Below, piece after piece: positions 5,572 to 41,193 of a stretch of DNA of 64,000 nt (positions are counted from its first letter, which is position 1; every line of letters starts with the position of its first letter). Origin of the DNA: Ezakiella massiliensis (GTDB taxonomy: Bacteria; Bacillota; Clostridia; Tissierellales; Peptoniphilaceae); assembly GCF_900120165.1 (NCBI RefSeq), contig NZ_LT635475.1, positions 992,001-1,056,000 on the forward strand, in the 5' to 3' direction. The notes under the pieces are model-generated. The model saw only the letters and a program-made list of their open reading frames with translations, had not been told where the DNA came from and ran no database searches. Both the position numbers and the translations under genes were made by a program.

Positions 5572-5585
5572 CCCAATACAACTTA

Positions 5586-5614: not shown

Positions 5615-5720
5615 ATGAATATAAGTTCAGTTTGTATTATATCTCAAATTGAAAAATAATTCAAGCACTATTGTTCGTATTAAAAGTTATAAATGCACAT
5701 TAGTACAGGAGGTTAAAATT

Positions 5721-6122: not shown

Positions 6123-6130
6123 GTGATTTT

Positions 6131-6679: not shown

Positions 6680-6687
6680 GAGACTCT

Positions 6688-8245: not shown

Positions 8246-8309
8246 CTTAATAAACGCTTAACGCTTATAAGGGTCTGTAAATAATTTTGTGTATCAACCT
8301 AAATACTGA

Positions 8310-8349
8310 TAACGCCTTGTCTTGATATATTCGATTGTTAAAGTTCAAA
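8310..8349. repeat. 40-bp imperfect direct repeat, copy B
   Basis: Partner of 4077-4116 (34 of 40 identical by eye, same orientation). It begins TAACGCCTTGTCTTGA and ends TTGTTAAAGTTCAAA. It lies between RhuM and the siderophore transporter genes, so it marks the right edge of the control module. Confidence 0.75.
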
Positions 8350-8372
8350 TATTGTTTAGATTTCTTTTAAAA

Positions 8373-8414
8373 TAGAAAGAGGACTTATGCTACTAGGCAT
8401 AAATCCTCTTTTCT
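8373..8414. terminator. Bidirectional hairpin terminator between converging operons
   Basis: TAGAAAGAGGA and CTTATGC pair with GGCATAA and TCCTCTTTTCTA around a short loop, with A/T-rich flanks on both sides. It lies between the plus-strand RhuM operon and the minus-strand siderophore transporter operon and could end both. Confidence 0.75.
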
Positions 8415-8451
8415 AAATTTTACTGTTTAAAGACTTTAATATTTCTTCCTA

Positions 8452-11902: not shown

Positions 11903-11913
11903 AAAATCCCCTC

Positions 11914-13365: not shown

Positions 13366-13366
13366 C

Positions 13367-23300: not shown

Positions 23301-25104
23301 CTCCTTTTTTTATTCTATTTTCCTTTAAAAATCCAGCTATTTTTAAGGATTTTTCATATAAGTCTATATAAGATATTTCTTCTTTAGTTTCTGAATCTAT
23401 AATTGCAATTTTTTCTGGATTTTCTTTTACATTTTTTATAAATCCATCATATAATCTCTCATCAAGAAAGTTTAACGGAAGAATTGATTTAAGCTCTTTT
23501 TCTCTTGCTAGTTTTTGATTTTCTGATAGTACATCAAATTTGCTTTCCCAATTTTCCTTTTCTGTTAGTCTTAAAAGTTGTTCTTCTAAAGAATTTAACA
23601 TGTCATCTAACATTTTTTCAGGGAAAAGTTCATCTACACTATCCCAACATAATACTAAATCTCCATCTTTTATATAAGATTGGAAATCTAACCATACTCC
23701 TGGAGTTTGTGAAACCATATATGTAATTTTGCCCAAAGCTTTCCTTGAAATTTCAGTCTCTAGTGGATAGTCTATGTTGCACGCAAAAACTACAGGTGAA
23801 ACATTAAGACTTGTACCCTGTGATTTCGATATATCTCTTTGAACTTGTACTCCACTATAAGATGAATGACTAGCATTGTCTATAAAGGTTTCGCTTATTC
23901 TATTCAAAGTTTCTAGGAAAGAAGTATCATTTTTTCTTTCATGTTCTACTAATAAGATATTTGTAAAGTCTGCCACCATATCTTTCAGGTTTTCGTTTGA
24001 AATATCTCTATTAAATAATGGTAAATTTATAAAAAACTTATCTTGGTTAGTCCATCTTTCTAGAATTAAAGCATACGCAGTTAATAAAACCATTGATGGC
24101 GTAGATTTATAGCTTGCTGCAAGTTCTTTTATTTTGCTCCATTTATCTTTTTCAATAACTCGTTTTCTTCTAGTAAATCTCGTTTCTTTAATTTGTTCAG
24201 GAGCTTTCTTTAATGGTAAATTGGGTCTTTCTATCTCAAATGAGTCTATTTTTTCTTTCCAAAACTCTTGATCTTTTTTATAAATTTCAGAGTCTACTTC
24301 AAGATTATTTATATAGTCTTTAAAGGTATAACTGTTTAGATTGTCTAATTCTTTTCCTAAATACAATTCTCCTAATTCTTTTAAAATAAGGCTCAAACTC
24401 ATTACATCAGCAACTAACAAATCCAAATCAAAGAAAATTTTATTTCTATTATGTGATAGATTTGCAAGTTTTAATTCTGCTACTTCTCCTATTTCTACTC
24501 TAAATTTTCTATGCGATAAATTTTCTCGTATTTCATCTAATCTAATTTTTCTTTCTTTTTCATCTAAATTAGATAAGTCAAAAACTTCAATTTCTTCACT
24601 AAAAGGTTTATCTAATATTTCTTGCTTTCCATCTTCTGTGAATCTTGCTCTGAGCATTGGATGTCTATATTGAAGTTTATTCCACGCATCATTCAATCTT
24701 TTATAATCTATATCTTTTCCATCTATTTCAATATAGGCATGACAACCCACTCCACCTAGAGTTTGATCATCACTTCTGCCTATAAAATAAGAATATTGAA
24801 CATCTGTAAGATTGAATGAATCTTTGCCATCATTTGATTTCTTATTATCTTTTGAATGTTTCTTAATAATTTTTGAATTAGCTACTAGGTCAAACCATGA
24901 ATTAAGTGTAGGCTTCTCAATGAGCTTTGCGAAGGATATTCTAAGTCCTTCTTTTTTAAGAATTCCTGAAAGTTGCATTACTTGCATGGAACTTAAGCCT
25001 TTTTCTATTAAATTGTCATTTTCTTTTATGTCTGATTTCTTCAAGGTATCTTTTAACCATTTTTCAATTATTAGTTTAATTTCTTTTCTCGCATCAAATT
25101 CCAT
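20329..25104 (-). CDS. NRPS: ArCP-Cy-A(Cys)-PCP-Cy, HMWP2-like
   Basis: 1591 residues. The aryl carrier protein has its Ser in GLSSMQVMQL at about 40. Cy1 has the cyclisation motif DLLVADVMS at about 228. The A domain has IIMTSGTTGVPKG at about 705; FDLSVYDIFG, SVWDSVP, LSGDW and ASIWSN resemble the cysteine code of HMWP2, with Asp where Asn is usual. The PCP Ser is in NGGDSLIAL at about 1098. Cy2 has DNVFFDAPS at about 1288. Both Cy motifs (DxxxxDxxS) are intact. The enzyme should load salicylate on ArCP, condense and cyclise it with Cys, and pass it to a second Cys on the next protein. The ATG follows AAGGAGC. A 21-bp tandem duplication (22075-22110) gives ESNYRKL/ESNYREL in the A-domain tail. 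Confidence 0.93.
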   Translation of the reverse strand: MEFDARKEIKLIIEKWLKDTLKKSDIKENDNLIEKGLSSMQVMQLSGILKKEGLRISFAKLIEKPTLNSWFDLVANSKIIKKHSKDNKKSNDGKDSFNLTDVQYSYFIGRSDDQTLGGVGCHAYIEIDGKDIDYKRLNDAWNKLQYRHPMLRARFTEDGKQEILDKPFSEEIEVFDLSNLDEKERKIRLDEIRENLSHRKFRVEIGEVAELKLANLSHNRNKIFFDLDLLVADVMSLSLILKELGELYLGKELDNLNSYTFKDYINNLEVDSEIYKKDQEFWKEKIDSFEIERPNLPLKKAPEQIKETRFTRRKRVIEKDKWSKIKELAASYKSTPSMVLLTAYALILERWTNQDKFFINLPLFNRDISNENLKDMVADFTNILLVEHERKNDTSFLETLNRISETFIDNASHSSYSGVQVQRDISKSQGTSLNVSPVVFACNIDYPLETEISRKALGKITYMVSQTPGVWLDFQSYIKDGDLVLCWDSVDELFPEKMLDDMLNSLEEQLLRLTEKENWESKFDVLSENQKLAREKELKSILPLNFLDERLYDGFIKNVKENPEKIAIIDSETKEEISYIDLYEKSLKIAGFLKENRIKKGEYVGITLPRSSKQIYAIFGILFSGAAYVVVGINQPSERRSKIYEQIGIKFVISDNKTIENYKLDTGDVFLIDLDKAIDKSLGLDKPIEVSPFDSAYIIMTSGTTGVPKGVEIMHTSAINTINDLNEKYSINSNDTLLMVSAIDFDLSVYDIFGILCVGGTLITTNEDNYRNPDEWIRIIEKYNVSVWDSVPILFDMLVTMAEGEKKNLPLRIVMLSGDWIAKELPGRFYKISGKENSIVVAMGGATEASIWSNYLNVPREIPKDWISIPYGRPLKNQVYRVVDEMGRICPNYVKGELLIGGVGVAKRYHGDEDLTKKKYFEEGGIRWYRTGDSGRTWDDGTIEFLGRKDTQVKIKGHRIELGEIEEAIRSKLKIKNVKVIANDKKNSLYAFVIRNDVESNYRKLESNYRELLRSIIPKYMIPDKFLYINNFPTNKNGKIDIKKLMKMVEEINVTCKRNPYEHSKKRFLKDVVEIFKEVTKNSHYDINANFFENGGDSLIALNILFKLNSKYNTSLNIKDIFESNSIIQICDTMQNEMNSYENYEQDFLELNEEKMPLTELQHSYWVNRIGYGNLVRQNANFYIELECIKLDVLKINDAINKIISKYKIFRNVISDDGEYFENSNRDHVEVKYNDLCDYSSKMKEKLIEDIRNRIIYSIDKEQLFAPLKVEITNIDINIAILHICFDNVFFDAPSIMYLLNELNLLYNNLDIENISLDRGTMIQINSDKLELDKLYWENKISKIFPAPNLLKIKNNLEIEETSGKVKRLTITLKEEQVKGLLYISGKYKVTTSNIILSVFSEIMHYWSQSTNYTINVIVINNRKDIYDYFGEIADYTSNILHTINYNVNESLYERMIKIQNNLFEDLQHMSFEGTQVLRELKKQNRKTYVNMPIVYTNTIGLDIDINMNNIGKIKNILTQTPGVYLDLQVSLVNGQYIINWDYLENVFDEKEIKEKFEIFEHILLEVIENESFLENSDIIQNGNFYEEGIL

Positions 25105-25116
25105 GTTCTGCTCCTT

Positions 25117-26703
25117 TCACTCTATTCTTTTTAATTTATTTCTATCAATTTTCCCCAAAGCAGTTAGCGGCCATGAATCTATATATTTTATAGAATCTGG
25201 CAATTTAAATTCCGCTACATTCTTATTTGCTAGAAATGTCCTGATATCTTCTAATGAGAGTTCGTCCTTCTCATCTTTTAATATGAACACTCCTATTTTT
25301 TCTCCCAAAAGTTCATCAGGTACTCCTACAACTTGAACATCTCCTATATTCTCATTAGATAGTAAAATATCTTCAATTTCAGAAGGCGTAATCTTTTCTC
25401 CAGCCCTATTTATTGTTTCTGAAATTCTTCCCACTACCTGATAGTTTTCATCTTTTAGTTTTCTTGCCTTATCTCCAGTTTTAAAATATAAATCTTTGTC
25501 TATACATCTTTTATTTACTTCTGGAAGCTTATAATAGCCATAAATTGTGTACGAACCTCTGACTATAAGTTCTCCGTACTCTTCATCTTTGACTTCTTCT
25601 CCGTCTTCATCAACTATTAACAATTCATCAAACTCACTTATAGGCTTCCCTTGAGTTGTAAATATAGTTTTACTATCATCATCTAAAGAAGTTGTCATAA
25701 TCAGACCTTCAGCTATTCCAAAAATTTGTTGTAGTTTGCAACCAAATTCTTTTTCTATCTTTTCAGCAAGTTTTTCTTCTAAAACTGATCCTCCAACTTG
25801 AAGAACCTTTAATGAAGATATGTCGTAATCATCTTCCTTTATAAAATCTATACATATATTTGCCATAGCAGGAACTAAGCCCGTTATCGTAACCTCCTCT
25901 TCCTCAATTAAAGGCAAAATTTCATCTGGACTTGTTACTGGGCATAGAACAACTTTGCCGCCTATAAAAAATGTTCCTAATATCCCTGGGCAACATAAAG
26001 GAAAGTTGTGAGCAATAGGAAGAGAAGCTAGATAAATACTGTCTTGATCCATTTTACATCTCTTTGCAGTTTCTTTCGCTACATAGATATAATCGCAGTG
26101 TCTCCTTGGTATCAATTTGGGTATACCAGTTGTGCCTCCTGATAAAAGTAATAATCCTATCTCTTTATAATTGATCTCTATTTGTTGAGATAAATAATCT
26201 TTATCATCAAGATTGTAAAAAATTTTATATCCTTGATTATCTCCAAGAATATAAACTTCAAAATCTATATTTAATTCTTCCTTTACTTCTCTTATCATAT
26301 CAACATATGAAAAGCCAAGATATTTATCCTTAGCTATATATGCTTTTGCCCCTGATTTTTCTAATATTCCCTTTATTTCATTTTTCCTATGAGCTGGAAG
26401 TGATAATACTGGAATCACACCAATCTTAAACATGGCAAAAAGGATAATAACAAATTCGTGACAATTAGGAAGTTGAAGAACGATTCTATCTCCCTTTTTA
26501 AATCCAGCTTTCAATAAACCATTGGCATAATGGCAAGCTTTTCTATTTAATTCTTGATATTAAAGTTCAACATCTCCATCTACTAAGGCAATTTTATCCC
26601 CATATTTTTTAGCACAATCTTCAATAAATTCTCCTAAGGTTATATGCGGCCACACTTGTTCATCATAAATTTTTTCTAATTTTTCTTTTAATTCAATGTT
26701 CAT
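25117..26703 (-). pseudogene. Salicylate-AMP ligase interrupted by an in-frame TAA
   Basis: The full frame starts at ATG 26703 (overlapping the PPTase stop as TAATG) with MNIELKEKLEKIYDEQVWP and continues to codon 47. Codon 48 (26562-26560) is TAA, in the context GDVEL-stop-YQELN where the family has L-T/S-Y. Downstream the remaining 465 residues from a non-start TTG at 26514 are intact. Motifs include LLSGGTTGIPKLIPRRH, the hinge YFKTGDKA and the C-terminal LGKIDRNKLK. In LPIAHNFPLCCPG the residue after PLC is Cys; salicylate-activating enzymes (YbtE, PchD, MbtA) have Cys where 2,3-DHB enzymes have Ser. It would load ArCP with salicylate. A single substitution (TCA to TAA) explains the break. 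Sequencing error or readthrough remain possible. Confidence 0.85.
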
Positions 26704-27395
26704 TATTTTTCCTCCAAGCATATTGCTCCGACATATTTGCCATCATAATTTAATGGCTGTAATCTACTTATTATATTGTTTTTATTATCGCTAATTTCTA
26801 TAACTTTATTTCCACAAGAAATTATTTCAATTTCTTTCAAATTTCTTATAAGACCAATCCCATCACATTTAAGATAGGCTTCTTTTGCAGTCCAATATCT
26901 ATAGAAACTTATTATATTGTTATCTATATTTGTGATTTCATCTTTAGTAAAACAGTTTTCTAATATATCCTTAAACTCAAATTTATAATTTATTTTTTCA
27001 ATATCTACCCCTACTTCTCTTTTAAAAAAAGCTAACAAAACTAAGCCTTCAGTATGTGAGATGTTAAACTTTAATCCTAGAGTGCTTTCTACGTAGGGTT
27101 TATTATTTTTATCTCTTTTGACTGTTAAATCATCAATTTCTTTTTCTAGTAAACCTTTTAGGGCTAAATTAAGTATTGCCCTTGATACTAGATAATTAAT
27201 TTTTGCTATTTCTGATTTATAATCCTTTGATTTTATTATCTCCTCTTTAGTTAAGTAAGGAAGTAATTTTTCTTCTAATAATTTATCTGTATAAGCCTTA
27301 ATTAGTATTAAATTATTACTAGCTAATTTATCTTTTAAATCTTCTAAAGTAAGAAAATCTTTAATTTTTCTTATCTCATATTCTTCAATTTTCAT
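26703..27395 (-). CDS. Sfp-type 4'-phosphopantetheinyl transferase
   Basis: 230 residues. The magnesium and CoA motifs are visible: GVDIEKI at about 113 and YRYWTAKEAYLK (WxxKEA) near 155, with an N-terminal KFNISHTEG segment. It transfers phosphopantetheine from CoA to the serines of ArCP and the two PCPs. The start overlaps the thioesterase stop and its own stop overlaps the AMP-ligase start, so three genes are translationally coupled. An equivalent gene is part of the equibactin locus. Confidence 0.93.
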   Translation of the reverse strand: MKIEEYEIRKIKDFLTLEDLKDKLASNNLILIKAYTDKLLEEKLLPYLTKEEIIKSKDYKSEIAKINYLVSRAILNLALKGLLEKEIDDLTVKRDKNNKPYVESTLGLKFNISHTEGLVLLAFFKREVGVDIEKINYKFEFKDILENCFTKDEITNIDNNIISFYRYWTAKEAYLKCDGIGLIRNLKEIEIISCGNKVIEISDNKNNIISRLQPLNYDGKYVGAICLEEK

Positions 27396-28137
27396 TTACT
27401 TTTATAAACTCTTTTATCTCTTTAATGACACTATCAGGAGATGTGTTGACAAACATATGCTTGCCATCTATATATCTATAAGTAAATTCTTTTGTTGTAT
27501 AATCTTGCCATTTTGTAAGTTCATCTAGGGTCATTTCTTGATCTTTATCTCCCATAAGACCTAGTAAAGGTGATTCTAATTTCTCAAATTTTGTGTCTTG
27601 ATAGTCTTCATCTATTACAAAATCTGCCCTAAGCGTTGGCAAGAAAATAGAAATTAAATCATTATTATCTAAAATTTCTTTTGGTGTTCCTTCATATCTT
27701 CTCAAGCCTTCTATAAATCCGTCATCATCAAGATGATAAATTGGAAGAGGTTCTTTATATAATGGTGCTCGTCCTCCTGATATTATTATTCCTCTTGGAT
27801 TTATGTAATCCGAATTTTTAATTCTTAATGCAAGTTCATAAACTATTTTTGTTCCCATACTGTGTCCAAATAAATAATAAGGTTTTCTAAAATCAAAATT
27901 TTCTTTCATATCTTCAAATAAACTATCCACTAGGATGTTAATGTCACTTATAGCCCTTTCAGAAAACCTGTTTTCTCTTCCTGGATATTGAGCAACAAGT
28001 AATTTTATATCTTCAAATTCATCTTTCCATTTTCTAAATGCAGACACTCCACCACCTGCAAACGGGAATATAAAAAGATTTGCTATTATATTATTTTCAT
28101 TAATTTCTTTATTTAATATTTCAAAGTTTTTTGACAT
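27385..28137 (-). CDS. Type II thioesterase
   Basis: 250 residues of the alpha/beta-hydrolase thioesterase II family. FPFAGGGVSAFRKW lies near the N terminus, the nucleophile elbow is GHSMGTKI, there is an Asp in LMGDKDQE and a His in DGKHMFVN. It removes misprimed groups from carrier domains (as YbtT does). It is the first gene of the biosynthesis operon, with AAGGTGA 5 nt before its ATG. The promoter and palindromic operator lie directly upstream. Confidence 0.92.
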   Translation of the reverse strand: MSKNFEILNKEINENNIIANLFIFPFAGGGVSAFRKWKDEFEDIKLLVAQYPGRENRFSERAISDINILVDSLFEDMKENFDFRKPYYLFGHSMGTKIVYELALRIKNSDYINPRGIIISGGRAPLYKEPLPIYHLDDDGFIEGLRRYEGTPKEILDNNDLISIFLPTLRADFVIDEDYQDTKFEKLESPLLGLMGDKDQEMTLDELTKWQDYTTKEFTYRYIDGKHMFVNTSPDSVIKEIKEFIKVNEN

Positions 28138-30941: not shown

Positions 30942-31703
30942 GTAATATATTTTTAAGATATTTAGAAAATAGGTTACGAAGTACTGTAACCATGACTTTC
31001 TCTCAATTGGTTCTGTAAAACCTGCTCTTCCCAATAGACTGTAAGCTGCTATTTTTCTTAATCAAAAAAATGCACTTTTATCACTAAATTCTGTGGTTCA
31101 AATATTTGTAACCTAATTTGGCACAATTAACCAATAAGGATAAATTTTAGATTATATCTTCAAAAATAAAATCAATTGTGATAGTATTTGACCCAATCCG
31201 CTTATTCTGCTTGTCCATTTACTTGAAGCATCCACCACTTCTAAATACAAACTTTTTTTATAAAACATGGTCATTTAAAAACATCATTTTGTTTTTTGTT
31301 ACTTCTCTTAATTGTCTATTAAATAATTGTCTATTAAAGTTTTCCATTGCTATTATTTTTAAGTCTTTCATTTTGAAATGTTTAGATCTATGTTTTCACA
31401 GGACGATTTTACTATTTCTTGCTTGATCCATTTCTAATACTTAAAGATAATATTTTTCACCATATTCATAGTCTAAGTACTCGTCTAATTCTGCTTTTAA
31501 CATTTGTTCCACTGTCTCACCTAAAATATCTTCTATTGTTTCTTGTGAGTCTTGCACTTTCTCTGAACGATATTATTCGATTTAACACTTTAGATATTTT
31601 ATTTAATCTTATTTCTAATCTTTTATATACATAAAATATTACACAGTCACTCCTAAGAGTGCCTTAATATTAGTTCTATTAAATAAAGAACTTTTTAATT
31701 CTA
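30942..31703. other. Spacer between relaxase and RiPP operon, partly IS-derived
   Basis: No intact gene. An inverted repeat GGTTAC-N8-GTAACC (30972-30991) follows the relaxase. The segment 31152-31569 is a decayed IS256-family transposase on the minus strand. CACTC-CTAA-GAGTG (31648-31661) lies between it and the RiPP operon. Open frames on the plus strand here are shadows of the remnant. Confidence 0.6.
31152..31569 (-). pseudogene. Remnant of an IS256-family transposase
   Basis: Pieces of the transposase appear in several minus-strand frames. An N-terminal piece (31440-31569) reads IEDILGETVEQMLKAELDEY. A small piece (about 31388-31434) reads KSSCENIDLNISK, like the KSSYGEIELNIPRDR motif of the family. 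A C-terminal piece reads LREVTKNKMMFLNDHVL, then in another frame DASSKWTSRISGLGQILSQL, like the KKWTxxIxNWGQILSQL end of IS256-type enzymes. The central catalytic region is missing, and stops and frameshifts interrupt the rest. This marks a past insertion between the mob genes and the RiPP cargo. Confidence 0.8.
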
Positions 31704-32318
31704 TTATTTAAAATATACAGGTTTTACATATCCATATTTCATTGCAATATGAACCATCTCTTGATAATTTCTAACACCCAATTTTTCGTATATGCGATTT
31801 AACGCTGTCGCTAATGAACTTTTACAAATATTACATTCCTTTGCGACTTCCATTCTTGTAAGCCCTGAACAATACAAATTAATAATTTCAATTTCTCTTT
31901 CTGTCAAATCATAATTCAAGTTAGTGTTTGCATTAAATATTAACTCTCCATTTACTACATCATTTAATTTCTTTACTAAAACTTTGATATTCTCATCTTT
32001 GCATATGAACCCTTTAGTACCTATTTTCTTCGCTTTCTCTTCAAAGCCTATTAAATCATATCCAGTTAGCATAACGATTTTTTGTTTTGGATATTTTATT
32101 AATATCTCATTAGCAACTTCTAATCCATCCTTATTGCCCTTCATTTTACTCAAATTAATATCCATTAAAATAATATCATATTCTTTTTTTTCTAATATTG
32201 ATCCCAAATTAAAAATATCATCAATCAAATCAACAATATCTATTTCTTCTTCACGCTCTAAACTATATTTTAAACTATTAGAAAACATGGTATGGTCATC
32301 TATTAATAATATTTTCAC
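31704..32318 (-). CDS. NarL/LuxR-type response regulator
   Basis: 204 residues. The receiver domain (1-125) has LLIDDH acidic residues, the phospho-acceptor Asp in IILMDINLS, Thr in VMLTGYD and Lys in GFICKDEN. A LuxR-type helix-turn-helix follows (LTEREIEIINLYCSGLTRMEVAKE). The start is a GTG at 32318 with GGAGG 9 nt upstream, overlapping the end of the kinase gene. The pair resembles ComA/ComP-type peptide-sensing systems. Candidate targets are the direct repeats at the promoter of the RiPP precursor. Confidence 0.92.
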   Translation of the reverse strand: MKILLIDDHTMFSNSLKYSLEREEEIDIVDLIDDIFNLGSILEKKEYDIILMDINLSKMKGNKDGLEVANEILIKYPKQKIVMLTGYDLIGFEEKAKKIGTKGFICKDENIKVLVKKLNDVVNGELIFNANTNLNYDLTEREIEIINLYCSGLTRMEVAKECNICKSSLATALNRIYEKLGVRNYQEMVHIAMKYGYVKPVYFK

Positions 32319-33834
32319 AGATCACTTCCTCCTCTATAGGTATAGTTACATTAATTTTAATGAATGGTTCAACTTTGTCATAAAACTGATCAATTAATAT
32401 TTTCCCATCTAATTTTTCAATTTCATCTTTTATAATCTCTAATCCTCTTCCATTCCCTATCTTTATATTTTCATAATCAAATACATCTTCATGATTGATT
32501 ACGCTAATATATAATTCTCTATTATCCGTTTTTATATTAATCTCAGAATAATTTCCTTTTGAATGTTTGTATATATTTATACATAATTCATGCAAAATCT
32601 TATAAATAACCATATCGTATGGATAATTTACAAAAAACTCTTTATCACAATTTAAGTCTATTAATATATCATTTTTGTTAAACCTGTTCCTTAAAGATTC
32701 TATTAAATTATAGTAATTGTCTGCTAATGGTAAATCATAAATAATTGTAGGATTATATAATTCAATCTCGGACCTTGTAATTCCAATTAATTTATCTATT
32801 GTTTTAATTGACTCATCTAAAAATTCTTTTTCTCCTAAAAGAATATTCATTTTTATAGCTATTATATCTTGTAATATATCATCATGTAAAAAGTTTGAAA
32901 TTCTTTTGTTATAATTCTTTTCTATATTGTATTGCTGTATTTTATTTCTTATCACTCCATTTGGATCTTTCTGTTTTTCAAAATAAAAGCAAAACATTAA
33001 CATACTCTCTTTGTATATTGTTATTAGACTTATCCCCATATAAATAACTCTCCTTAGACCTTGTCCAAATAAATTTACAAATACTATAAATATACATAAA
33101 AACATACAGTCTATAATCATCAAGAGCATTTCATTTTTGTTTATCACTTTAGATGAATTTTGTTTTTTTAGTAGTATGAAATATAATGTAGTCAAATATA
33201 TTGAATTCAACAAAAAGTATATTTCCAGCTTTTCTAACTTAGCGTTATTTATAAATATTCCGCTAAATATATATATAAATATTGAGGCAATAAATAAAAA
33301 TGTTACCCCATATATTTTTGCACCAAACTCAAATAATATCTTTCGTTTCTTGTATGCCATAACAAAAGGACCAAATGTTATAATTACATACAAAATATAA
33401 TTTATTATCTCTGCATACCCTAAATCAAGTGACTCAAACAATATAGCTAAAATTGTAAAAAATATAATAATCTTATTAAGTATTTTTATATCTATTAAAT
33501 ATGCACTAACGACTTTGAGTAAATTTGCTGTAATTACAAACACCGTTATTAGCTTAAATGTTGTGTACATATTACTTTTTAAAAAATCAAAAACGTCAAC
33601 TACTACAAAAATATTAATACATAAAGTAGCTATTATAAAATTTTTAATCGTCTCCTTAACTCTATCTAATACCAAAATTTTATAGCTTATGTATCCGTAT
33701 ACTGTAAATAAACACAAAGAGAATAGTTGTATATTATTAATGCTATTATTTCCCAAATGACTAAGGACGAAATAACTAATCACACCTTGAACTATTATAC
33801 ATAAAACTAATAATACACTTTTTCTATTTATCAT
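32296..33834 (-). CDS. Polytopic sensor histidine kinase
   Basis: 512 residues. The first ~290 are strongly hydrophobic with about eight to ten membrane helices and no large extracellular domain. The phosphorylation helix is a HisKA_3 type (RISNFLHDDILQDIIAIKM, with the His in FLHDD), followed by an HATPase_c domain (ILHELCINIYKHSKG as N box, GNGRGLEIIKDE as G box). The architecture resembles ComP-like kinases that sense modified peptides through the membrane. It is last but one in the operon encoding a modified peptide and its exporter, so it may sense that peptide. Confidence 0.88.
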   Translation of the reverse strand: MINRKSVLLVLCIIVQGVISYFVLSHLGNNSINNIQLFSLCLFTVYGYISYKILVLDRVKETIKNFIIATLCINIFVVVDVFDFLKSNMYTTFKLITVFVITANLLKVVSAYLIDIKILNKIIIFFTILAILFESLDLGYAEIINYILYVIITFGPFVMAYKKRKILFEFGAKIYGVTFLFIASIFIYIFSGIFINNAKLEKLEIYFLLNSIYLTTLYFILLKKQNSSKVINKNEMLLMIIDCMFLCIFIVFVNLFGQGLRRVIYMGISLITIYKESMLMFCFYFEKQKDPNGVIRNKIQQYNIEKNYNKRISNFLHDDILQDIIAIKMNILLGEKEFLDESIKTIDKLIGITRSEIELYNPTIIYDLPLADNYYNLIESLRNRFNKNDILIDLNCDKEFFVNYPYDMVIYKILHELCINIYKHSKGNYSEINIKTDNRELYISVINHEDVFDYENIKIGNGRGLEIIKDEIEKLDGKILIDQFYDKVEPFIKINVTIPIEEEVICENIINR

Positions 33835-33864
33835 ATACAGTACCTTCCATTTATCATGTTATTT

Positions 33865-34599
33865 TTAATTAATATCTGACTTTCTAAATATTAATATTGT
33901 TATTGTAATCATAATAAAAAAGACTATTAGGGATATAGTTGTAGGTCTAAGAGTTCCGTCTATAAAGTTTTTATTTATAATTACATTTTTTATTTGAGAT
34001 AGCGGAAAAAATGTAATACTTTTTTTTATAAATTCTATAGGTATTATTCCCTGTAACATTGATATTACTACTGGAATTGCTAAAGAGATCCCTATTGTTT
34101 CTCCGATACTTTGGGTTGCAAATCCTAATAAAGAATAAATACTCGTTAAAGACATAAAGCATAAATTAGAAATAATTATTATTCTTACAATTTCAAGAAT
34201 ATTATTATAGTCTTTGATTGGTAAAAATCCATACTTTAAGCTTCCCATTATTCCTACTATAATTGGATACAAGTTAACAATTATAAAAGAAGCAATCATC
34301 AATACAATCAATTTTGATATTACAATGTCTTTTCGACTAATTCCTGAAGAAATCTGTCTTTGTATAATCTTTGAAGAAAAATCACTACCTATAAAATATC
34401 CACAATAAACCGCAATGAAAAATGACATAAATATATCTGAATAAGATTTTATAAAACCTTCATACCCACTGCTTATATTTCCCTGTACGGTATCTTGAAA
34501 TCCACTTAATATTGATAACAATGTTACACTTAAAATTAGCACATAAAAAAACTTATCTTTCTTCAATCTTTCTGCATTAAATTTAATTAAGTTCTTCAT
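33865..34599 (-). CDS. ABC-2 type permease
   Basis: 244 residues with six predicted membrane helices (about 18-38, 55-75, 95-125, 140-165, 175-190 and 215-238). The GYFIGSDFSSKIIQRQISSGISRKDIV segment is typical of ABC-2 permeases (bacitracin/lantibiotic-immunity type). The start overlaps the ATPase gene end. Together they form an exporter comparable to YydI/YydJ, for peptide export or self-protection. Confidence 0.88.
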   Translation of the reverse strand: MKNLIKFNAERLKKDKFFYVLILSVTLLSILSGFQDTVQGNISSGYEGFIKSYSDIFMSFFIAVYCGYFIGSDFSSKIIQRQISSGISRKDIVISKLIVLMIASFIIVNLYPIIVGIMGSLKYGFLPIKDYNNILEIVRIIIISNLCFMSLTSIYSLLGFATQSIGETIGISLAIPVVISMLQGIIPIEFIKKSITFFPLSQIKNVIINKNFIDGTLRPTTISLIVFFIMITITILIFRKSDIN

Positions 34600-35500
34600 T
34601 GTCTCCCTCCACTAATTTTATCATATATGTTTCTAAATTATCTCTTTTTATTTCTGTTTTACAGTTATTTAGTCTTAATTTTTTTATAATTTCTAGCTCT
34701 TCATCTTTTGAATATATGCCTCGAACCTCTAAAGTATTATTTTTTAATCTATATTCTCTTTCAGGGCATGCTATTTTCAATATATTATAAACTTCCTCGA
34801 TATTTTCTCTATATCCTATAACAGATGTGCCTAAATCTTTCGTTAATTCTGTTTTTGAAACCACCTGTATTATTTTCCCCTTATCAATAAATATGAAATC
34901 TGTGGCTATCTCATACAATTCTGTTAATATGTGGCTAGATATTAATATTGTCTTATTTTCTTTTTCTATGAAATCTCTAAAAATTCTTCTTAGCTTTGAT
35001 ACGGATATTGGATCGATTCCGTTTGTTGGCTCATCTAAAATCAATAAATCAGGATTTTTCAAAAAAGCTATTCCTAATCCAAGTTTTTGCTTCGTTCCTA
35101 GCGATAAATTTTTAGCTTTCTTTTTTAAGCTATCCATTATTTCTAGTTGTTGGAATATTTCCTTTTGCTCCATTCCAAATTCAATCCCAAGTTCAATACA
35201 AGCTAATCTTATATTTTCTTCTGCAGTCAATCCGGAGTAAAAACTTGGAGTTTCAATCGTTGCACTGATATGTTCTCTACTCTTTATCAGTTCTTTTGAA
35301 AAAGATTTATTAAATAATTTTATAGAACCTTTTGTAGGAAAAATATTTCCAGTAATTATTTTAACTAAAGTAGATTTCCCAGCTCCATTTACTCCTATCA
35401 AACCATAAATTCTATTGCTTTCTATTTTTAAATCTATATTCTCTAGAGCGATAGTCTCTTTATACTTTTTAGAAATATTTTCTAATTGAATTACATCCAT
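34583..35500 (-). CDS. ABC transporter ATPase (peptide export or immunity)
   Basis: 305 residues. Walker A is GVNGAGKSTLV, the signature LSLGTKQKLGLG, Walker B LLILDEPTNGIDP, with the switch His in LISSHILTE. The C-terminal extension is typical of the bacitracin/BcrA-type subfamily. It lies 6 bp after the MFS-spermidine synthase gene and overlaps the permease gene. It powers the exporter of the RiPP operon. Confidence 0.92.
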   Translation of the reverse strand: MDVIQLENISKKYKETIALENIDLKIESNRIYGLIGVNGAGKSTLVKIITGNIFPTKGSIKLFNKSFSKELIKSREHISATIETPSFYSGLTAEENIRLACIELGIEFGMEQKEIFQQLEIMDSLKKKAKNLSLGTKQKLGLGIAFLKNPDLLILDEPTNGIDPISVSKLRRIFRDFIEKENKTILISSHILTELYEIATDFIFIDKGKIIQVVSKTELTKDLGTSVIGYRENIEEVYNILKIACPEREYRLKNNTLEVRGIYSKDEELEIIKKLRLNNCKTEIKRDNLETYMIKLVEGDNEELN

Positions 35501-35506
35501 TTACGC

Positions 35507-37051
35507 TCAATCCTTTCTAATCTTCATTTGATTTTTCACTATTTTATTAAATTCTTCATCTTGAAGTTTCTCAATATTATTAATATCATCAGATAAAATA
35601 TTATTTACATCTTCAACTTTTTGAGAATCTTTAAACAACTTTTTAGTCTCATCTTTAAGATGGTTTTTGTTTTGCTCTTTTAACGATAATTCTAAATTCT
35701 TTTCTGAACCATATACAATAACATTATTGTCACTTTTGGTTTTATATTTATAAACATTAGGGCAAACACATTTCAAAGTACCACTTAAGGCAAGCACAAG
35801 ATTAGAATTCAGGCTATTTCCTAAACCTATATTCAATGCAATAATTCCATTTCTATTAAGATGCGCTTTACAATCCTCAAAAAATTCTCTAGTAGTTAGG
35901 TTTATTGGCATAGATATATTCTGATAAACATCAAGTATTATTAAATCATACATTTCATCTGTACTATTTAAATAATTCCTTCCGTCAGAAATTATAATTT
36001 TATCATCACTTTTATTAAAATAAAGCTCTCTTAAGTTGACAATATTTCTATCTATTTCTATCCCTGTAACTTCAAAATTATCAAAATTTTTATGCAACAA
36101 AGTAGACATAGTTCCCGTTCCATAACCAATAATTAAGATTTTATGCTTGACTTTATCATCAAGTAAATTATTAATCTTAACAAATTCGTCATAATAATAT
36201 CCTGATTTCTTTTTATTCTTATCAACTTTTATTGACTGTGCGCCAAAAAATACATTTGTTTTTAAAGCTAATTTTCCATCATCATTTTGTGATACATTAA
36301 TATAATTATATTCTGACTCTTCTTCGTGCACAGGCTTATCAAAGGCTAGACTTGTTGTTGATAAATATAACGACATACAAAGCCATAAAACACAAATAAT
36401 TGAATTTAATAAAAAGTTCTTTTTTATTTTTTTGCTATATAATATCAAAATAATGGCTAGTACCGCTCCAAATAATAGAAAAGATCTTTTTACGCCTATT
36501 TTGGGGATTACTAATATAGTTGGTATCATTGTTCCTAACACAGATCCAAATATGTTGAATAAATATAAATTTCCCATTACATTTCCAGTTTCATCTAAAG
36601 AAGTTATACTTATTTTTGCTAGCAGTGGAGAGATTGTCCCCATAAAAATTAATGGAACACTAAATAATACTATGCTGCAAATAATAGAAGATATCATAAT
36701 TATATTCCCTAATTGCACTTCAGAAGCCAATATTATTGACCCCATTATAACTATTTTAGACGTTAGTGGTACCGTACATATGAACAAAAAAGATATTAAT
36801 AAATTTTTAACAATCCTTTCCTCACAAGTTCTTGTTTTTACTAATTTATCTGCACGTTTACCCCCAAAATAATTCCCAATTCCTATACAAATCATTATTA
36901 AGCTAATTTCAATTAACCAAATTAGAGTTGTTGAGCCAAAATAAGGAGATAATATTCTTGTCGCACTTGTTTCAATTCCCATTATACAAAACCCTGATAT
37001 TAAAGCAGTAAAGTAATATATAATAACTTGCTTATTTTTATTTACATTCAT
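35507..37051 (-). CDS. Fused MFS-type membrane protein and spermidine-synthase-like domain
   Basis: 514 residues. Residues 1-220 hold about seven to eight membrane helices (GFCIMGIETSATRILSPYFG start, FMGTISPLLAKI and GNVMGNLYLFNIFGSVLG), typical of fused MFS/spermidine synthase proteins. Residues 260-440 are a spermidine-synthase fold: IIGYGTGTM binding loop, VTGIEIDRNIV, ISDGRNYL, and the catalytic-region YDLIILDVYQN. A charged tail of about 70 residues follows. Relatives transfer aminopropyl groups or act as methyltransferase-like enzymes. Presence between a radical SAM/protease pair and an exporter suggests it modifies the peptide or provides a small-molecule partner. The reaction cannot be assigned from sequence. 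Confidence 0.85.
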   Translation of the reverse strand: MNVNKNKQVIIYYFTALISGFCIMGIETSATRILSPYFGSTTLIWLIEISLIMICIGIGNYFGGKRADKLVKTRTCEERIVKNLLISFLFICTVPLTSKIVIMGSIILASEVQLGNIIMISSIICSIVLFSVPLIFMGTISPLLAKISITSLDETGNVMGNLYLFNIFGSVLGTMIPTILVIPKIGVKRSFLLFGAVLAIILILYSKKIKKNFLLNSIICVLWLCMSLYLSTTSLAFDKPVHEEESEYNYINVSQNDDGKLALKTNVFFGAQSIKVDKNKKKSGYYYDEFVKINNLLDDKVKHKILIIGYGTGTMSTLLHKNFDNFEVTGIEIDRNIVNLRELYFNKSDDKIIISDGRNYLNSTDEMYDLIILDVYQNISMPINLTTREFFEDCKAHLNRNGIIALNIGLGNSLNSNLVLALSGTLKCVCPNVYKYKTKSDNNVIVYGSEKNLELSLKEQNKNHLKDETKKLFKDSQKVEDVNNILSDDINNIEKLQDEEFNKIVKNQMKIRKD

Positions 37052-37071
37052 ATAGGCCCCCCATGTTCTAA

Positions 37072-38232
37072 CTATTTTTTATATTTTTTTATGATTTTAA
37101 CAAACAATAAAGATATGTAAACTAAAGATATTATATCTATAATTAAATTTGCTCCAATTTTGATTCTTTGAAATAGAAACAATTCTCCATAAAAAAGTAA
37201 ACGAATTGATTCTAGTAAATTTCTCTTTCCAAAAACCACTTCTAATACTCTAATAATCCCAAAAATTATTATTATCAAATTCACTAATGCATACATCAAA
37301 GAATAAACTTTCACACACTTGCTACTTTCCATTGTATATGCTTTCCTTTTATTATATATTTTTTCATTATAAATATAATTTAATAATTTCATGGATCTAC
37401 CATGAATATTCGGTTCATCAATAAAATCTGACAAAATCCAATATCCATCTAATCTTAAAAATGGATTCAAATTAAATATTATAAGAATTAAGTTAAATAT
37501 AATTAGAGCATCCATAGTGTTATTTCGGATCATTACCGCCGAAAAAAAATACATAAATAATCCAACAAGCATTTGTAAATAAATCCCAGCAAAATCTATG
37601 ATTAACCTTTTTTTATTACTTAATTTCCATGAATCACTTAGGTTAACATACATAACAGGTCTAAACATATATACTCCTATACCAATATTACCAACTTTAC
37701 AATCAAGTGACTTAGATGAATATATATGTCCTAGTTCATGAACTACGAAGATTAAACCAAATGATATAAAAAATAGAAAATAATTAATACTGTTTATTCC
37801 GTTAATAAAATATATCCAATTAAATTCCTTTATATATTTTAGAGATATTACACAATAAATTATACTCAAAATTATTATAAGTGTTGGTTTAAATATAAAT
37901 CCAGGTAATATCATTTTTAGTTTATCACCATCTATTATTGGTAAATGAAACCAAAATTTATATTGACTACTTTCATTATATTCGCTAAATACCCCAGTCA
38001 TTATTAATCTATTATTTATTAAATCTTCTAATTCTGATTCTGATATCTCAAATCCTTCATTATTTAATTCATTTTTTACTTTATTTATGCTTTTTGTACC
38101 ATCAAATTTTTTAATTATTTCTTCTACAATTGGCGTAACTCTTACCCTTTTCCCGTTATCAAAACTAAGTAGTAGTCTTCCATCATCTAGATATTCTTTA
38201 ACGTAATGATTAGTCTTTAAATTTTCTACCAT
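37072..38232 (-). CDS. PqqD-like domain fused to an M50 metalloprotease (YydH-like)
   Basis: 386 residues. The first ~85 residues (YLDDGRLLLSFDNGKRV and TPIVEEIIKKFDGTKSI) look like a PqqD/RRE winged helix, which binds RiPP leader peptides. The rest is a polytopic M50 protease: FVVHELGHIYSSKSL (HExxH at about 164) and NPFLRLDGYWILSDF at about 258 supplying the third ligand. In Bacillus subtilis YydH, an M50 protease, acts in maturation of the epipeptide YydF. This one would remove the leader at the membrane. It starts 2 bp after the radical SAM gene. Confidence 0.88.
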   Translation of the reverse strand: MVENLKTNHYVKEYLDDGRLLLSFDNGKRVRVTPIVEEIIKKFDGTKSINKVKNELNNEGFEISESELEDLINNRLIMTGVFSEYNESSQYKFWFHLPIIDGDKLKMILPGFIFKPTLIIILSIIYCVISLKYIKEFNWIYFINGINSINYFLFFISFGLIFVVHELGHIYSSKSLDCKVGNIGIGVYMFRPVMYVNLSDSWKLSNKKRLIIDFAGIYLQMLVGLFMYFFSAVMIRNNTMDALIIFNLILIIFNLNPFLRLDGYWILSDFIDEPNIHGRSMKLLNYIYNEKIYNKRKAYTMESSKCVKVYSLMYALVNLIIIIFGIIRVLEVVFGKRNLLESIRLLFYGELFLFQRIKIGANLIIDIISLVYISLLFVKIIKKYKK

Positions 38233-38234
38233 AT

Positions 38235-39455
38235 TTACATCTCTAAAAATTTATACTTAATCGAATTTATATATTCTCTTAAAACTTCTTTAGCATTATT
38301 ACAATAAGGGTCATTAATATCACCATTATTTTTTATAGCTGCGTAGGCACACCCACCGCCACAGAACGGAGCAATTTCACAATCCAAACATCTATCAATG
38401 TTCAATATACATCTATTACTCCATATTGAATATGCCTCTTTATTAAGACTAACTCTTTCATCGTTATAAAATCCTATAGCATATTGGGGATTTCCTATTG
38501 CTTCAGGACACGCATATATGTTACCCTCTGGATCATACACATAATATTGTCCTCTATTAGCTTCACAATACGTGTATTTTGCAAAATCTTTTTTTGCATT
38601 CTCAGAAGTTCCTCTCATTATATGAGATATTACTCTAAACATTGATAATCTATTTTCCATATAATTTGGAAACTTTTCATTTAATTTTTTTATAATCTCA
38701 TCTTCCGATATTGTGTCCACAGCATTATCTGCAGTATGATCTGTCACAGGTGCTAAATCGAATCTAAAATTAGGGCTATCTATCCATTTTTTTGATTTTA
38801 AAAAATCTTCAAGCTCTTTTAAGTAGTTAATATTATACTGATTTATATTAACTCTTAAATTTATTTGCCTTATTTTAGTATTTACTAATAAATCCAATCC
38901 ATTAACTATATCGTCAAATGTTCCTTTACCATTTTTATAAACTCTTCTAGAATCATGAATTAATTTAATTCCGTCAATAGTTATCTGTACGGAATCTATC
39001 GTATTTTCAAATCTTTTAAAAATATTTATGTAGTTTTCCACATGACTTCCATTTGTTATTATACTAACTGGAATATTATTTTTTTCAGCAAACGACAAAA
39101 TTTTAATATTTATATCTTTGGTAATAGGAAGAATAGGTTCTCCCCCGAATAATTGAATTCGATGCTTTATATTTGGTTTATTCTCTTTTACTTTATATAT
39201 AAAATCACAAATAGACTGACATTGATTATCACTAATAACTTTTTGTTGATTTCTAACCTTAGAAGGTTCAAAACAATATACACAATTCATATTACAAAAC
39301 ATAGTAGGACAAATAACATGAATCACAGATATATCACATAAATATTCATGAATTTTCATTTGTCGTTTCATCTCATTTAACTCATGATTTCTATCTTCAA
39401 ATATATATCCTCTTTTCTTCAAAGAATCATATATATTTTTTTCTCTAGCATTCAA
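38235..39455 (-). CDS. Radical SAM/SPASM peptide-modifying enzyme
   Basis: 406 residues. The [4Fe-4S]-SAM motif is MFCNMNCVYCFEP (CX3CX2C, about residues 55-62), followed by LFGGEPIL. A SPASM domain near the C terminus carries many cysteines (YTYCEANRG, YACPEAIG, RCLDCEIAPFCGGGCA and DPYCNN) for auxiliary clusters. Such enzymes form thioether or C-C crosslinks, or epimerise residues, in RiPP precursors. The start is a TTG with no clear ribosome binding site 67 nt after the precursor stop; an upstream non-standard start cannot be excluded. The short N terminus leaves no room for a full leader-binding domain, which may be provided by the PqqD part of the next protein. Confidence 0.9.
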   Translation of the reverse strand: MNAREKNIYDSLKKRGYIFEDRNHELNEMKRQMKIHEYLCDISVIHVICPTMFCNMNCVYCFEPSKVRNQQKVISDNQCQSICDFIYKVKENKPNIKHRIQLFGGEPILPITKDINIKILSFAEKNNIPVSIITNGSHVENYINIFKRFENTIDSVQITIDGIKLIHDSRRVYKNGKGTFDDIVNGLDLLVNTKIRQINLRVNINQYNINYLKELEDFLKSKKWIDSPNFRFDLAPVTDHTADNAVDTISEDEIIKKLNEKFPNYMENRLSMFRVISHIMRGTSENAKKDFAKYTYCEANRGQYYVYDPEGNIYACPEAIGNPQYAIGFYNDERVSLNKEAYSIWSNRCILNIDRCLDCEIAPFCGGGCAYAAIKNNGDINDPYCNNAKEVLREYINSIKYKFLEM

Positions 39456-39521
39456 AGCTTTAATGTTATCTTGTTCACTAATTAAGTTTCACAACTTTAA
39501 AGCTAAAAACGTTAAATTATA

Positions 39522-39623
39522 CTAAATTCTCCAACAACACAAACAAGAAATATATTCTTCTCTTTCTTCAAGCTCTTCAATTTCAACTTCCGTCCAAAGT
39601 TTCACTTCATTAACTGATTTCAT
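39522..39623 (-). CDS. RiPP precursor peptide, 33 residues
   Basis: ATG at 39623 with AAAGGAGA 6-7 nt upstream; stop TAG at 39522-39524. The peptide starts MKSVNEVKLWTEVEIEEL, an acidic helical leader, continues with a charged ELEEREE stretch and ends EYISCLCCWRI. Three Cys and one Trp in the last seven residues form a likely core. It is directly upstream of the radical SAM gene in the same orientation, downstream of a good promoter, and too short for usual gene finders. Possible modifications are Cys thioethers, Trp crosslinks or epimerisation. The mature product may be a bacteriocin or a signalling peptide for the co-encoded kinase. Confidence 0.82.
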   Translation of the reverse strand: MKSVNEVKLWTEVEIEELEEREEYISCLCCWRI

Positions 39624-40050
39624 AAAAGTTCTCCTTTCTAAATCTTAGTAAACAACGCAAATACAACTTTTGTTGTACTGTCTTTATAATATTATTTAAT
39701 CTTATTTTTGTCAGCTTACTTTTGTCTTATTTTTCTATATTTACGATATTGAATAATCGATTCTTCTAAAAGTTTATTTCAAGGACAATTTTCTAATTCT
39801 GTTAAGTTTACGTAATTTCGCAAAACTTTGAAATTTTATCATATATATTAATATCAATTGCAAAAATAAAATTACATATATGAAAATTAATGATCATTGC
39901 TGATTAATTTTAATTATCTACTAATAGTTTTTTGATTTAAACTTGTTGTTATGTTTATACATTATTATATTAAGAATATTAATGTATAACCGATATTGCA
40001 AACTTATCAAAAAAATAAAGGCAATCCTAAAACCTGCCCCCTATAATCTT
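39624..40050. other. Control region of the RiPP operon and flanking spacer
   Basis: No gene. It holds the RiPP promoter with three direct repeats (39701-39736), a palindrome TACAAC-TTTT-GTTGTA in the 5' leader (39662-39677), and a 10-bp inverted repeat TTATACATTA/TAATGTATAA (39955-39989) between the RiPP promoter and the end of the SSB-like gene. The rest is A+T-rich with no recognisable coding. Confidence 0.65.
39686..39736 (-). promoter_or_regulatory. RiPP promoter with three direct repeats
   Basis: On the minus strand CTGACA (39714-39709), 17 nt, then TATTAT (39691-39686). Three 11-bp near-identical direct repeats overlap and precede the -35: read on the plus strand they are CTTATTTTTGT (39701), CTTACTTTTGT (39715) and CTTATTTTTCT (39726). 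Direct repeats upstream of a weak -35 are typical activator boxes, and the operon encodes a NarL-type response regulator. Confidence 0.62.
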
Positions 40051-41193
40051 TTACCTTTCTATGCTATTATCCTTTTTCTTCTTTTCATCCACTTTCATAT
40101 CCCCTTTAGTCTTAAATTCCTTTAATTTTCCTAGTGTTGATGCTTTTGCTTTAGTATGCTCTTTAGCTTTTAATAACTTTGCAGAGTATACTTTTAGATT
40201 TGTGTATTCCTTATTATCCTTTCCCATACTTTTCTTTTCTTTGCCAAATAGGTGTACAAAATCTCCTTTTTTCAAATTTTTTACTTGATTGATTTTGTCA
40301 TTATAGGCGTAGCAGCTGATGAATTTTGCATTTCCTTCCTTGTCATTTTCAGCAATAGAAAAGGAGGCTACTTTAAAGTCCCTCCCATCTTTTGATTTTA
40401 AATCTTTAATTTCTATATCAGTTGCTATATTTCCATCTATATTTAATGTATCCTTTTCTTTATTATCAATATCTTTCATCTCTTTATCTCCTTGTTCTTG
40501 ATTAGCTTCTAAATTTTCTTTTAACTCTTCTTCGTCTATATATTCAATAAACTTTTCATCAATAAGACCCATAACTGAATCGTTCATATAATTATCATAG
40601 GCATTATTAAGAACATTATCATTTTCTACTCCTGTTTCAAGAGATATAATACCTTTTACAAATTCTTTATGATTATATTCTGCTAAAAAATCTATTGTAT
40701 TTTTCATGCTTTCAAAATTTGTATTTTCCATATTTGCTATTGTTTTTATATCACTTGCGTATCTAACAGAATCCCATTCATACTTTCCACTTTCTTTGTT
40801 AAACTCTACTCCTGTGGCTAAAATAAATTGCTTTCCGTCAAATAAGGTAGCTTGATTATCTTTCACATCCAATACCATAGTGTCTCCAAATTCAGTTTCA
40901 ATTACATTTCCCTTTTTTATATTCATTTTTATTCCTCCATTTCTATTTTTATCTTTCTTATCTGTTAAATCTTTTATTTCTTCTTCCTTTCCGTCACTAA
41001 TAATAAATTGTTTTATTTCTTCAACTGTTGGATCATCAATTGTAGTCTGGATAAATCCAACTAATTTATCTTCTGAATCGGCAAAATTTTTAATTCCATA
41101 TTCAACTATATTGTTGATTATTCTCTGAGTATTACCATCAAAAGAAAAATTTTCTCGAATAAATTCATTAAATCTATCTCTATCAAATTCCAT
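40051..41193 (-). CDS. SSB-like conjugation protein with N-terminal extension
   Basis: 380 residues. The C-terminal part (about 245-345) looks like an OB-fold single-strand DNA-binding domain (DFKVASFSIAENDKEGNAKFISCYAYN and LKKGDFVHLFGKEK). The middle (about 90-235) starts MNIKKGNVIETEFGDTMVLDV and is of unknown type. The first 89 residues look like a separate small helical protein. A strong GGAGGA lies 6-7 nt before an in-frame ATG at 40926, so a shorter 291-residue protein can start there. It is transcribed after the methylase-helicase gene. SSB proteins on conjugative elements protect incoming single-stranded DNA. Confidence 0.75.
   Translation of the reverse strand: MEFDRDRFNEFIRENFSFDGNTQRIINNIVEYGIKNFADSEDKLVGFIQTTIDDPTVEEIKQFIISDGKEEEIKDLTDKKDKNRNGGIKMNIKKGNVIETEFGDTMVLDVKDNQATLFDGKQFILATGVEFNKESGKYEWDSVRYASDIKTIANMENTNFESMKNTIDFLAEYNHKEFVKGIISLETGVENDNVLNNAYDNYMNDSVMGLIDEKFIEYIDEEELKENLEANQEQGDKEMKDIDNKEKDTLNIDGNIATDIEIKDLKSKDGRDFKVASFSIAENDKEGNAKFISCYAYNDKINQVKNLKKGDFVHLFGKEKKSMGKDNKEYTNLKVYSAKLLKAKEHTKAKASTLGKLKEFKTKGDMKVDEKKKKDNSIER

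Follow-up and report, generated by a model that had tools for sequence, protein, structure and literature searches.

The 64,000-nucleotide stretch of DNA considered here (the window) covers positions 992,001-1,056,000 of NZ_LT635475.1, from Ezakiella massiliensis (genome G000, 1.74 Mb, one contig, completeness 99.97%). It carries eight genes at 31704-39623, all on the minus strand and spaced from a 23-bp overlap to a 66-bp gap, which very probably form an operon for a ribosomally synthesised and post-translationally modified peptide (RiPP), with an LWT...LE....E leader family and a cysteine-containing core. To judge from sibling elements, the operon is cargo in one slot of an integrative and conjugative element (ICE), and its radical S-adenosylmethionine (radical SAM) gene lacks its 5' end. 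Gene content, leader family, cargo slot and truncation are directly supported in the available sequence. We lean towards the view that the product is a bacteriocin-type RiPP of a new precursor family, made in five steps, the first of which would be disabled in this strain. An earlier reading of the letters alone (the sequence-only reading) had described eight tightly packed minus-strand genes, with an order and coordinates that are right, and had rightly read the sensor pair together with the operon.

The 33-residue peptide encoded by the first gene is, on comparative grounds, more than a chance open reading frame (ORF), because the sequence AGAAAGGAG stands upstream of its ATG, because the peptide is identical in three further species (loci L007-L010) and because its leader recurs in ten distant loci. 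The distant loci were searched for with the profile of a 28-row alignment of the radical SAM family (alignment A1), which found one new genome pair, G586 and G711, in the phylum sample and was positive in 10 of 245 genomes, G586 among them, of a family read as Paenibacillaceae-like. Eleven profile-selected loci were compared (L122 from G711, L123 from G586, and L140-L148), and every ORF of 20-100 residues on either strand of each was scored against the window peptide. In ten of the eleven (L123 and L140-L148, with 162-248 ORFs each), the best ORF scores 46-74 and the runner-up 28-40, the narrowest margin being that of L145 (46 for the peptide, 40 for the next ORF), and this best ORF carries the LWT leader. 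The peptide adjoins the radical SAM gene in eight loci and lies about 4.4 kb downstream in L140 and L141.

These ten loci cannot be counted as independent, since L140/L141, L144/L147 and L142/L143/L145/L146 form groups of near-copies; five types remain. With 5000 shuffles per type, the score was reached once for L144 and never for L123, L140, L148 or L142. The invariant columns of the eight-row precursor alignment are L9, W10, T11, L18, E19, E23 and C27; L142 is its weakest member, without the arginine common to the other rows. A conserved, short, leader-bearing precursor near a maturase, which is the criterion for a RiPP, is found across clusters. The sequence-only reading had staked its RiPP proposal on homologous clusters with a conserved short peptide, and such clusters exist.

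In three loci with remoter radical SAM enzymes (L016, L017 and L018), which came from single-protein searches (180 bits in one, 192-230 bits with P0006 in the other), the top ORFs score 26-31 and none of the three has an LWT peptide. L018 (from G206) has a tandem array of five radical SAM/SPASM genes of this superfamily at 7197-14461, whose neighbours were read from the sequence as UbiA-like and B12-type. The precursor profile retrieved the known peptide alone in the window genome and, among 37 genomes of one genus, only G586, which is itself part of the profile. No NCBIfam model matches the window peptide or three other precursors at E up to 1. The Pfam touches among the eight precursor rows (FlaF in two, best 0.007; DUF6174 in two, 0.21) were taken as chance.

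In six of the ten precursor loci, a PqqD-M50 protease and an ATP-binding cassette (ABC) ATPase are encoded as well. L123, L148, L144 and L147 comprise two radical SAM genes, PqqD-M50, the ABC ATPase and a large ORF read as a permease, while in L140 and L141 a LytTR-type regulator and a kinase are followed by radical SAM, PqqD-M50, ABC and permease genes. The best NCBIfam models for the L140 pair are LytR (71.7 bits) and DcuS/MalK (42 bits), with AgrA at 36 and AgrC at 29.5 bits, all below cut-off. In L142, L143, L145 and L146, two radical SAM genes flank a 46-residue LWT peptide with a CC motif, and a downstream gene encodes a protein of 651-653 residues; this branch without M50 possibly makes a different product type.

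Nearer relatives of the radical SAM enzyme are present in 4 of 149, 2 of 391 and 3 of 398 genomes, the window genome being counted each time, and in 0 of 11 and 0 of 397 genomes of two other samples. Among plasmids, the peptide region has no DNA match, P0006 has none at 1e-40, and the radical SAM proteins found, in six records, are only 26-31% identical. Phages gave two matches only, below 30% identity. Among viral_contigs, a single-protein query had no match and the family profile led to 49 loci of 20-36% identity.

Among known enzymes, CteB-type thioether maturases seem nearest to the radical SAM enzyme, rather than the yyd/Epe epimerase. The sole solved structure found by sequence, PDB 5wgg/5why (E 7.1e-18), is also the best by fold; we take these entries to be CteB, the maturase of a SCIFF (ranthipeptide). 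The maturase families CefB, TIGR04463, Clo7bot and PapB match it at 114 to 168 bits (cut-offs 340 to 600). It is less probable that the enzyme introduces some other modification (a C-C bond or a cyclopropane, for instance, in the manner of TigE-type enzymes), since the names of these closest families refer to Cys-rich or thioether peptides, CteB ranks first in sequence as well as in fold, and one cysteine is invariant in the precursor alignment.

Regarding the cargo slot, the DNA beside the operon (39650-40950) has a match in 32 of 130 genomes of the family (E 1e-20), and the match reaches into the operon's own upstream region in only four of the 32 (the window genome, G553, G029 and G545). 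Our survey of sibling elements covers 20 regions drawn from 19 of the other 31 genomes, and in some of these a second place was left aside; the 12 genomes outside it include G029 and G553, taken as Peptoniphilus duerdenii and P. harei and covered as L008-L010, and one at a contig end. The slot is empty in 15 of the 20 regions, where 40009 (40001 in L058) is joined to 30945 with 71-180 bp between them: the empty site consists of the gene 40051-41193, these 71-180 bp and the relaxase gene. One region (L067) has the present operon and is the A. tetradius copy (L007) again. The remaining four (L055, L056, L057 and L068) hold other cargo of 7.7-11.2 kb. That the operon travels as ICE cargo, as the sequence-only reading had proposed, agrees with these empty sites.

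L055, L056 and L057 share one kind of cargo, comprising ABC genes, a radical SAM gene, a regulator and a kinase. The sensor genes of L057 resemble VanRS (regulator 280 bits, cut-off 350; kinase 271 bits, cut-off 400) and its enzyme resembles RumMC (458.8 bits, cut-off 720). A precursor search limited to L057 placed the peptide of this locus in the sactipeptide bacteriocin family Apre_1838, with 119.8 bits (cut-off 45). In L068, the cargo encodes a peptide that resembles lactococcin 972 (30.5 bits, cut-off 32.1), together with an ATPase belonging to that group (202.3 bits, cut-off 254.85), a regulator and a kinase.

The radical SAM ORF has 522 residues in L057 (5839-7407; precursor 7475-7669) and only 364 and 101 residues in L055 and L056, so that maturase decay may be common in the slot. 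In L068, whose cargo spans 1636-8109, the kinase reads as two overlapping ORFs (2314-2754 and 2666-3340) and an 81-residue ORF at 3521 looks like what is left of an ABC ATPase gene such as that of L057.

In the scheme that we favor, the SPASM radical SAM enzyme would bind the LWT...LE..R.E leader with its N-terminal winged-helix domain, which resembles a RiPP recognition element (RRE), and would modify the Cys-rich C-terminus, most likely by thioether cross-links. The PqqD-M50 protease would then bind the same leader with its own RRE-like domain and cleave it at the membrane; the ABC pair would serve in export and/or self-protection; the HPK7 kinase and the NarL-type regulator would sense the peptide or its membrane stress and drive the operon; and the protein that fuses a major facilitator superfamily (MFS) transporter to a spermidine-synthase-like (SpdSyn) domain would provide a further tailoring or transport step. 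The whole set would be swapped as a cassette in a conjugative-element slot that takes bacteriocin loci. In the window strain the first step would have been lost through a recent 206-bp deletion of the slippage type, which would make this strain probably a non-producer that keeps its sensor and protection genes. The chemistry, the proteolysis, the sensing and the antibacterial action are what we infer here.

A bacteriocin is rather probably the main role, and we prefer it to a pure pheromone mainly because the slot also takes sactipeptide and lactococcin-972-like loci; the kinase may plausibly sense the operon's own product. It is unlikely that the peptide is mainly an autoinducing signal, with the kinase and regulator as pheromone receptor and the ABC pair as exporter only. 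The sensor genes are packed with the operon, but the other cargo of the slot, which is bacteriocin-type, likewise comes with two-component genes; a LytTR-type regulator and a kinase stand beside the cluster in L140 and L141, but by our reading of the ORFs these are the only two of the ten distant loci with such a pair; and the best NCBIfam model for the ABC ATPase is a lantibiotic-protection ABC protein (198.5 bits, below the cut-off of 309.75). SCIFF-derived ranthipeptides are reported to act in clostridial quorum sensing, according to a passage of PMC8102284 that cites Chen et al. 2020, so that the bacteriocin and signal roles may coexist.

The state of the radical SAM gene emerges from comparison with three named relatives that have the operon, Anaerococcus tetradius ATCC 35098 (L007), P. 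duerdenii ATCC BAA-1640 (L008) and P. harei NCTC13076 (L009); part of it is present in L010 (P. harei). The DNA identity to the window is 98.5-99.6% (L008 is N over the kinase and regulator, and the sensor pair was left out of that comparison). The ORF has 456 residues in the relatives, with an ATG preceded by AGGAGG, and 406 in the window, where it starts at an internal TTG. Between the peptide and radical SAM genes, an 11-bp repeat occurs in two copies 206 bp apart in L007, L008 and L009, and in one copy in the window. The 206 bp absent from the window cover the start (AGGAGG-ATG) and the first 42 codons of P0001, a protein of 456 residues (its protein cluster has 114 sequences), and also include a strong hairpin between the precursor and enzyme genes (-33 kcal/mol, z -4.3). 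The other operon genes align without gaps to L007 and L009. Compared with L009, the operon genes show 2 codon differences whereas the adjoining backbone gene 40051-41193 shows 31, which suggests that the operon was probably exchanged recently and that the deletion is younger still.

In the AlphaFold model of P0001 (predicted local distance difference test 88), residues 1-89 form three strands and three helices, a fold that we read from the model as a PqqD/RRE-like winged helix. Of this fold, the deletion would remove the three strands and the greater part of the first helix. In alignment A1 the invariant G26 and D29 belong to the lost part, and all invariant cysteines lie within the retained part. 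A passage of PMC7470986 places leader binding by RREs between strand 3 and helix 3; it lists helices before strands, while strands come first in our models. The radical SAM enzyme is likely disabled in the window strain, where the description of the operon as self-contained fails.

An error of sequencing or assembly seems an improbable source of the 206-bp deletion. A collapse at the 11-bp repeat is possible, but ordinary reads are longer than this repeat, and exactly such a pattern would result from replication slippage; the deletion is present in a single genome record, but G000 is a single contig of 99.97% completeness. The P. harei record L010 does have, in the same region (2862-4184), a near-perfect head-to-head palindrome of the operon 5' end, which is probably a sequencing or assembly artefact.

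It is quite improbable that the truncated protein still works, from the TTG or another start, with leader binding through the PqqD part of the M50 protein. The same source (PMC7470986) indicates that RREs can be separate proteins, and the invariant cysteines are all retained. The remainder of the ORF has no codon differences from L009, but so young a deletion leaves no time for selection to show. Moreover, the AGGAGG-ATG start is gone and no ribosome-binding site is seen before the TTG, and according to the model the missing residues 1-42 would make up the three strands and most of the first helix, including G26 and D29.

The domain searches used Pfam and NCBIfam with their curated cut-offs, which were exceeded by Radical_SAM, SPASM (TIGR04085), Peptidase_M50, NF037959, ABC_tran, ABC2_membrane_3, Response_reg and GerE. 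The gene identities given by the sequence-only reading stand as far as domain families go, the HATPase_c domain of the kinase being below cut-off (16.4 against 26.4 bits); they need correction for the radical SAM ORF, with its internal TTG start and its missing 206 bp. The M50 protein has HELGH at residues 165-169 and NLNPFLRLDG from residue 254, and it scores well short of membership with both the YydH/LiaK model NF058609 (53.9 bits, cut-off 225) and the daptide M50 protease model NF041824 (92.6 bits, cut-off 300).

The MFS-SpdSyn protein is a member of NF037959. Its SpdSyn domain had been taken for an aminopropyltransferase-like enzyme, a reading that is not supported: the domain falls far below the cut-offs of PRK00811 (67.5 against 260 bits) and speE (54.1 against 249.55 bits), and lacks the acidic residues of the GGGDG and DxxD motifs of true polyamine aminopropyltransferases, having GYGTG and DVYQ at the aligned positions. 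The gene is common in a family read as Lachnospiraceae-like (57 of 240 genomes), where the 20 loci examined, out of 58 listed places, have no other operon gene within flanks of at most 1.5 kb. P0143 (MFS-SpdSyn, 46%) and P0024 (radical SAM, 58%) may be neighbors, because each is assigned to one 7,588-base contig.

The H box (FLHDD at 315), N box (at 415) and G box (at 460) of the kinase are readable and HPK7-like. Three families are listed for this kinase, with UhpB best at 30.1 bits and ComP not among them; the regulator is NarL-type, the best 25 of its 65 family matches having been examined. The ComP/ComA likeness proposed earlier holds only at the level of the superfamilies (HPK7-type kinase, NarL-type regulator), ComP being absent from the families listed for the kinase.

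Several observations weigh against the scheme as a whole. In L122 the top ORF scores only 30 and no LWT peptide is found within its 17 kb, while its profile score of 411 bits compares with 365-457 for the ten positive loci; it has to be considered as a miss and not as a control, since it was chosen by the same profile as the ten positives. The clusters that the sequence-only reading envisaged, with all parts together, are not seen among the ten precursor loci, none of which has a match to MFS-SpdSyn; M50 has no match in the four loci of the branch with two radical SAM genes (L142, L143, L145 and L146), and two-component pairs are as scarce as described above. The listed NCBIfam maturase matches are far below the equivalog cut-offs (155 for a cut-off of 600 at best, 167.5 for the full-length relative), the classification of the kinase is weak, and the deletion is known from one record only.

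The coordinates of the features are collected below. Upstream of the operon, a promoter-like site CTGACA-17-TATTAT at 39686-39714 is followed just downstream by the candidate inverted repeat. A promoter and terminator scan gave no more sites than shuffles did, promoter-like sites included, and a second regulator pattern, with up to 3 mismatches, was also matched by 26 of 100 shuffles.

Features of the operon and its cargo slot (positions in the window)
Feature	Position	Strand	Basis
ICE cargo slot (ends of backbone similarity in sibling elements)	30945..40009		Empty sites join both points with 71-180 bp
NarL/FixJ-type response regulator	31704..32318	-	PF00072 (Response_reg) and PF00196 (GerE) above cut-off
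Polytopic histidine kinase, HPK7 type, about 7 transmembrane segments	32296..33834	-	H, N and G boxes
ABC-2 type permease	33865..34599	-	PF12698 (ABC2_membrane_3), 34.2 bits, cut-off 31.6
ABC transporter ATPase	34583..35500	-	ABC_tran above cut-off
Fused MFS/spermidine-synthase-like protein	35507..37051	-	NF037959, 155.6 bits, cut-off 40
Membrane M50 metalloprotease, N-terminal PqqD-like winged helix	37072..38232	-	PF02163 above cut-off; motifs, alignment A3, model
Radical SAM/SPASM maturase, 5'-truncated (residues 51-456 of P0001)	38235..39455	-	Radical_SAM and SPASM above cut-off; full-length relatives; model
Deletion scar, single copy of 11-bp repeat TTAGTGAACAA	39471..39481	-	Two copies 206 bp apart in L007, L008, L009
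Precursor peptide, 33 residues, leader LWT...LE..R.E, core ...ISCLCCWRI	39522..39623	-	ORF and ribosome-binding site, identical relatives, distant leader conservation
Candidate regulator site, inverted repeat ACAACAAAAGTTGT overlapping GTTGTATTTGCGTTGT	39652..39676	-	Possible site, candidate only

Between the operon and the relaxase gene there are short minus-strand ORFs (31152-31557), one of which may be a remnant of a Mutator-type transposase (PF00872, 13.4 bits, below the cut-off of 21). A nonribosomal peptide synthetase locus lies at 17648-28137, on the same side of the relaxase gene (TubC_N, methyltransferase, condensation-adenylation-peptidyl carrier domains, AMP-binding, phosphopantetheinyl transferase, thioesterase), with ABC and CbiQ-type transporters (exporters) at 8452-14038; similar DNA (67-95%) is present in 12 of the 20 sibling regions.

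The kinds of parts are known and the precursor family appears new: it is absent from NCBIfam and has no credible Pfam model. As weak evidence of absence, in the literature searched, with most subscription journals outside it, we found no paper joining Peptoniphilus, radical SAM and RiPP, and none joining spermidine synthase, RiPP, radical SAM and MFS; without MFS, only unrelated work appeared. The family has a usable leader signature that extends from anaerobic cocci to a Paenibacillaceae-like family and is missing from both curated libraries. An ICE site in one bacterial family takes alternative bacteriocin-type loci with two-component genes on board. With a naturally truncated maturase and intact relatives side by side, one can test directly what the leader-binding domain does and how producers and immune non-producers differ. 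More speculatively, and with considerable doubt, this could be a new RiPP class whose LWT...LE..R.E leader is read in turn by two RRE-like domains (of the radical SAM enzyme and of the protease), whose peptide in the cocci is both bacteriocin and autoinducer and undergoes a second modification by MFS-SpdSyn, and whose slot keeps spawning sensor- and immunity-bearing non-producers through radical SAM loss.

Last, the operon can be compared with known systems. The yydFGHIJ (epeXEPAB) operon of B. subtilis, as presented in PMC7026026, has the same order of peptide, radical SAM, M50 protease and ABC pair, and is linked to the two-component stress response LiaRS, which lies outside the operon. The genes of the present operon follow that order save for MFS-SpdSyn in between, and its M50 protein does match the YydH/LiaK model. 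That it is an epipeptide operon is nevertheless very improbable and was rejected, since at 53.9 bits the M50 match falls short of membership and the radical SAM comparison leans against it. The yyd likeness noticed by the sequence-only reading is supported in part, by the M50 protease and the ABC pair; the radical SAM enzyme appears to be of another kind, resembling thioether SPASM maturases rather than EpeE/YydG, and the Cys-rich core, the sensor pair within the operon and MFS-SpdSyn also set it apart.

CteB, likewise a SPASM radical SAM enzyme, can be aligned with the entire model, including the N-terminal domain, at about 20% identity, but the SCIFF precursor is another one, and the present cluster adds M50, ABC, MFS-SpdSyn and two-component genes. 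The CefB, TIGR04463 and Clo7bot models likewise match our enzyme over nearly its full length, N-terminal domain included, whereas the PapB match is restricted to residues 102-433; the precursor here has no NCBIfam match at the threshold given above. The daptide M50 protease is the best named relative of our M50 protein, but the operon has no other recognised daptide gene. The Apre_1838 locus of L057 (like L055 and L056) shares the insertion site, two-component genes, ABC genes, a radical SAM enzyme and a Cys-rich precursor with the present operon, and differs from it by its RumMC/CcpM-like enzyme, its VanRS-like sensor (both below cut-offs) and the lack of M50 and MFS-SpdSyn among its listed ORFs.

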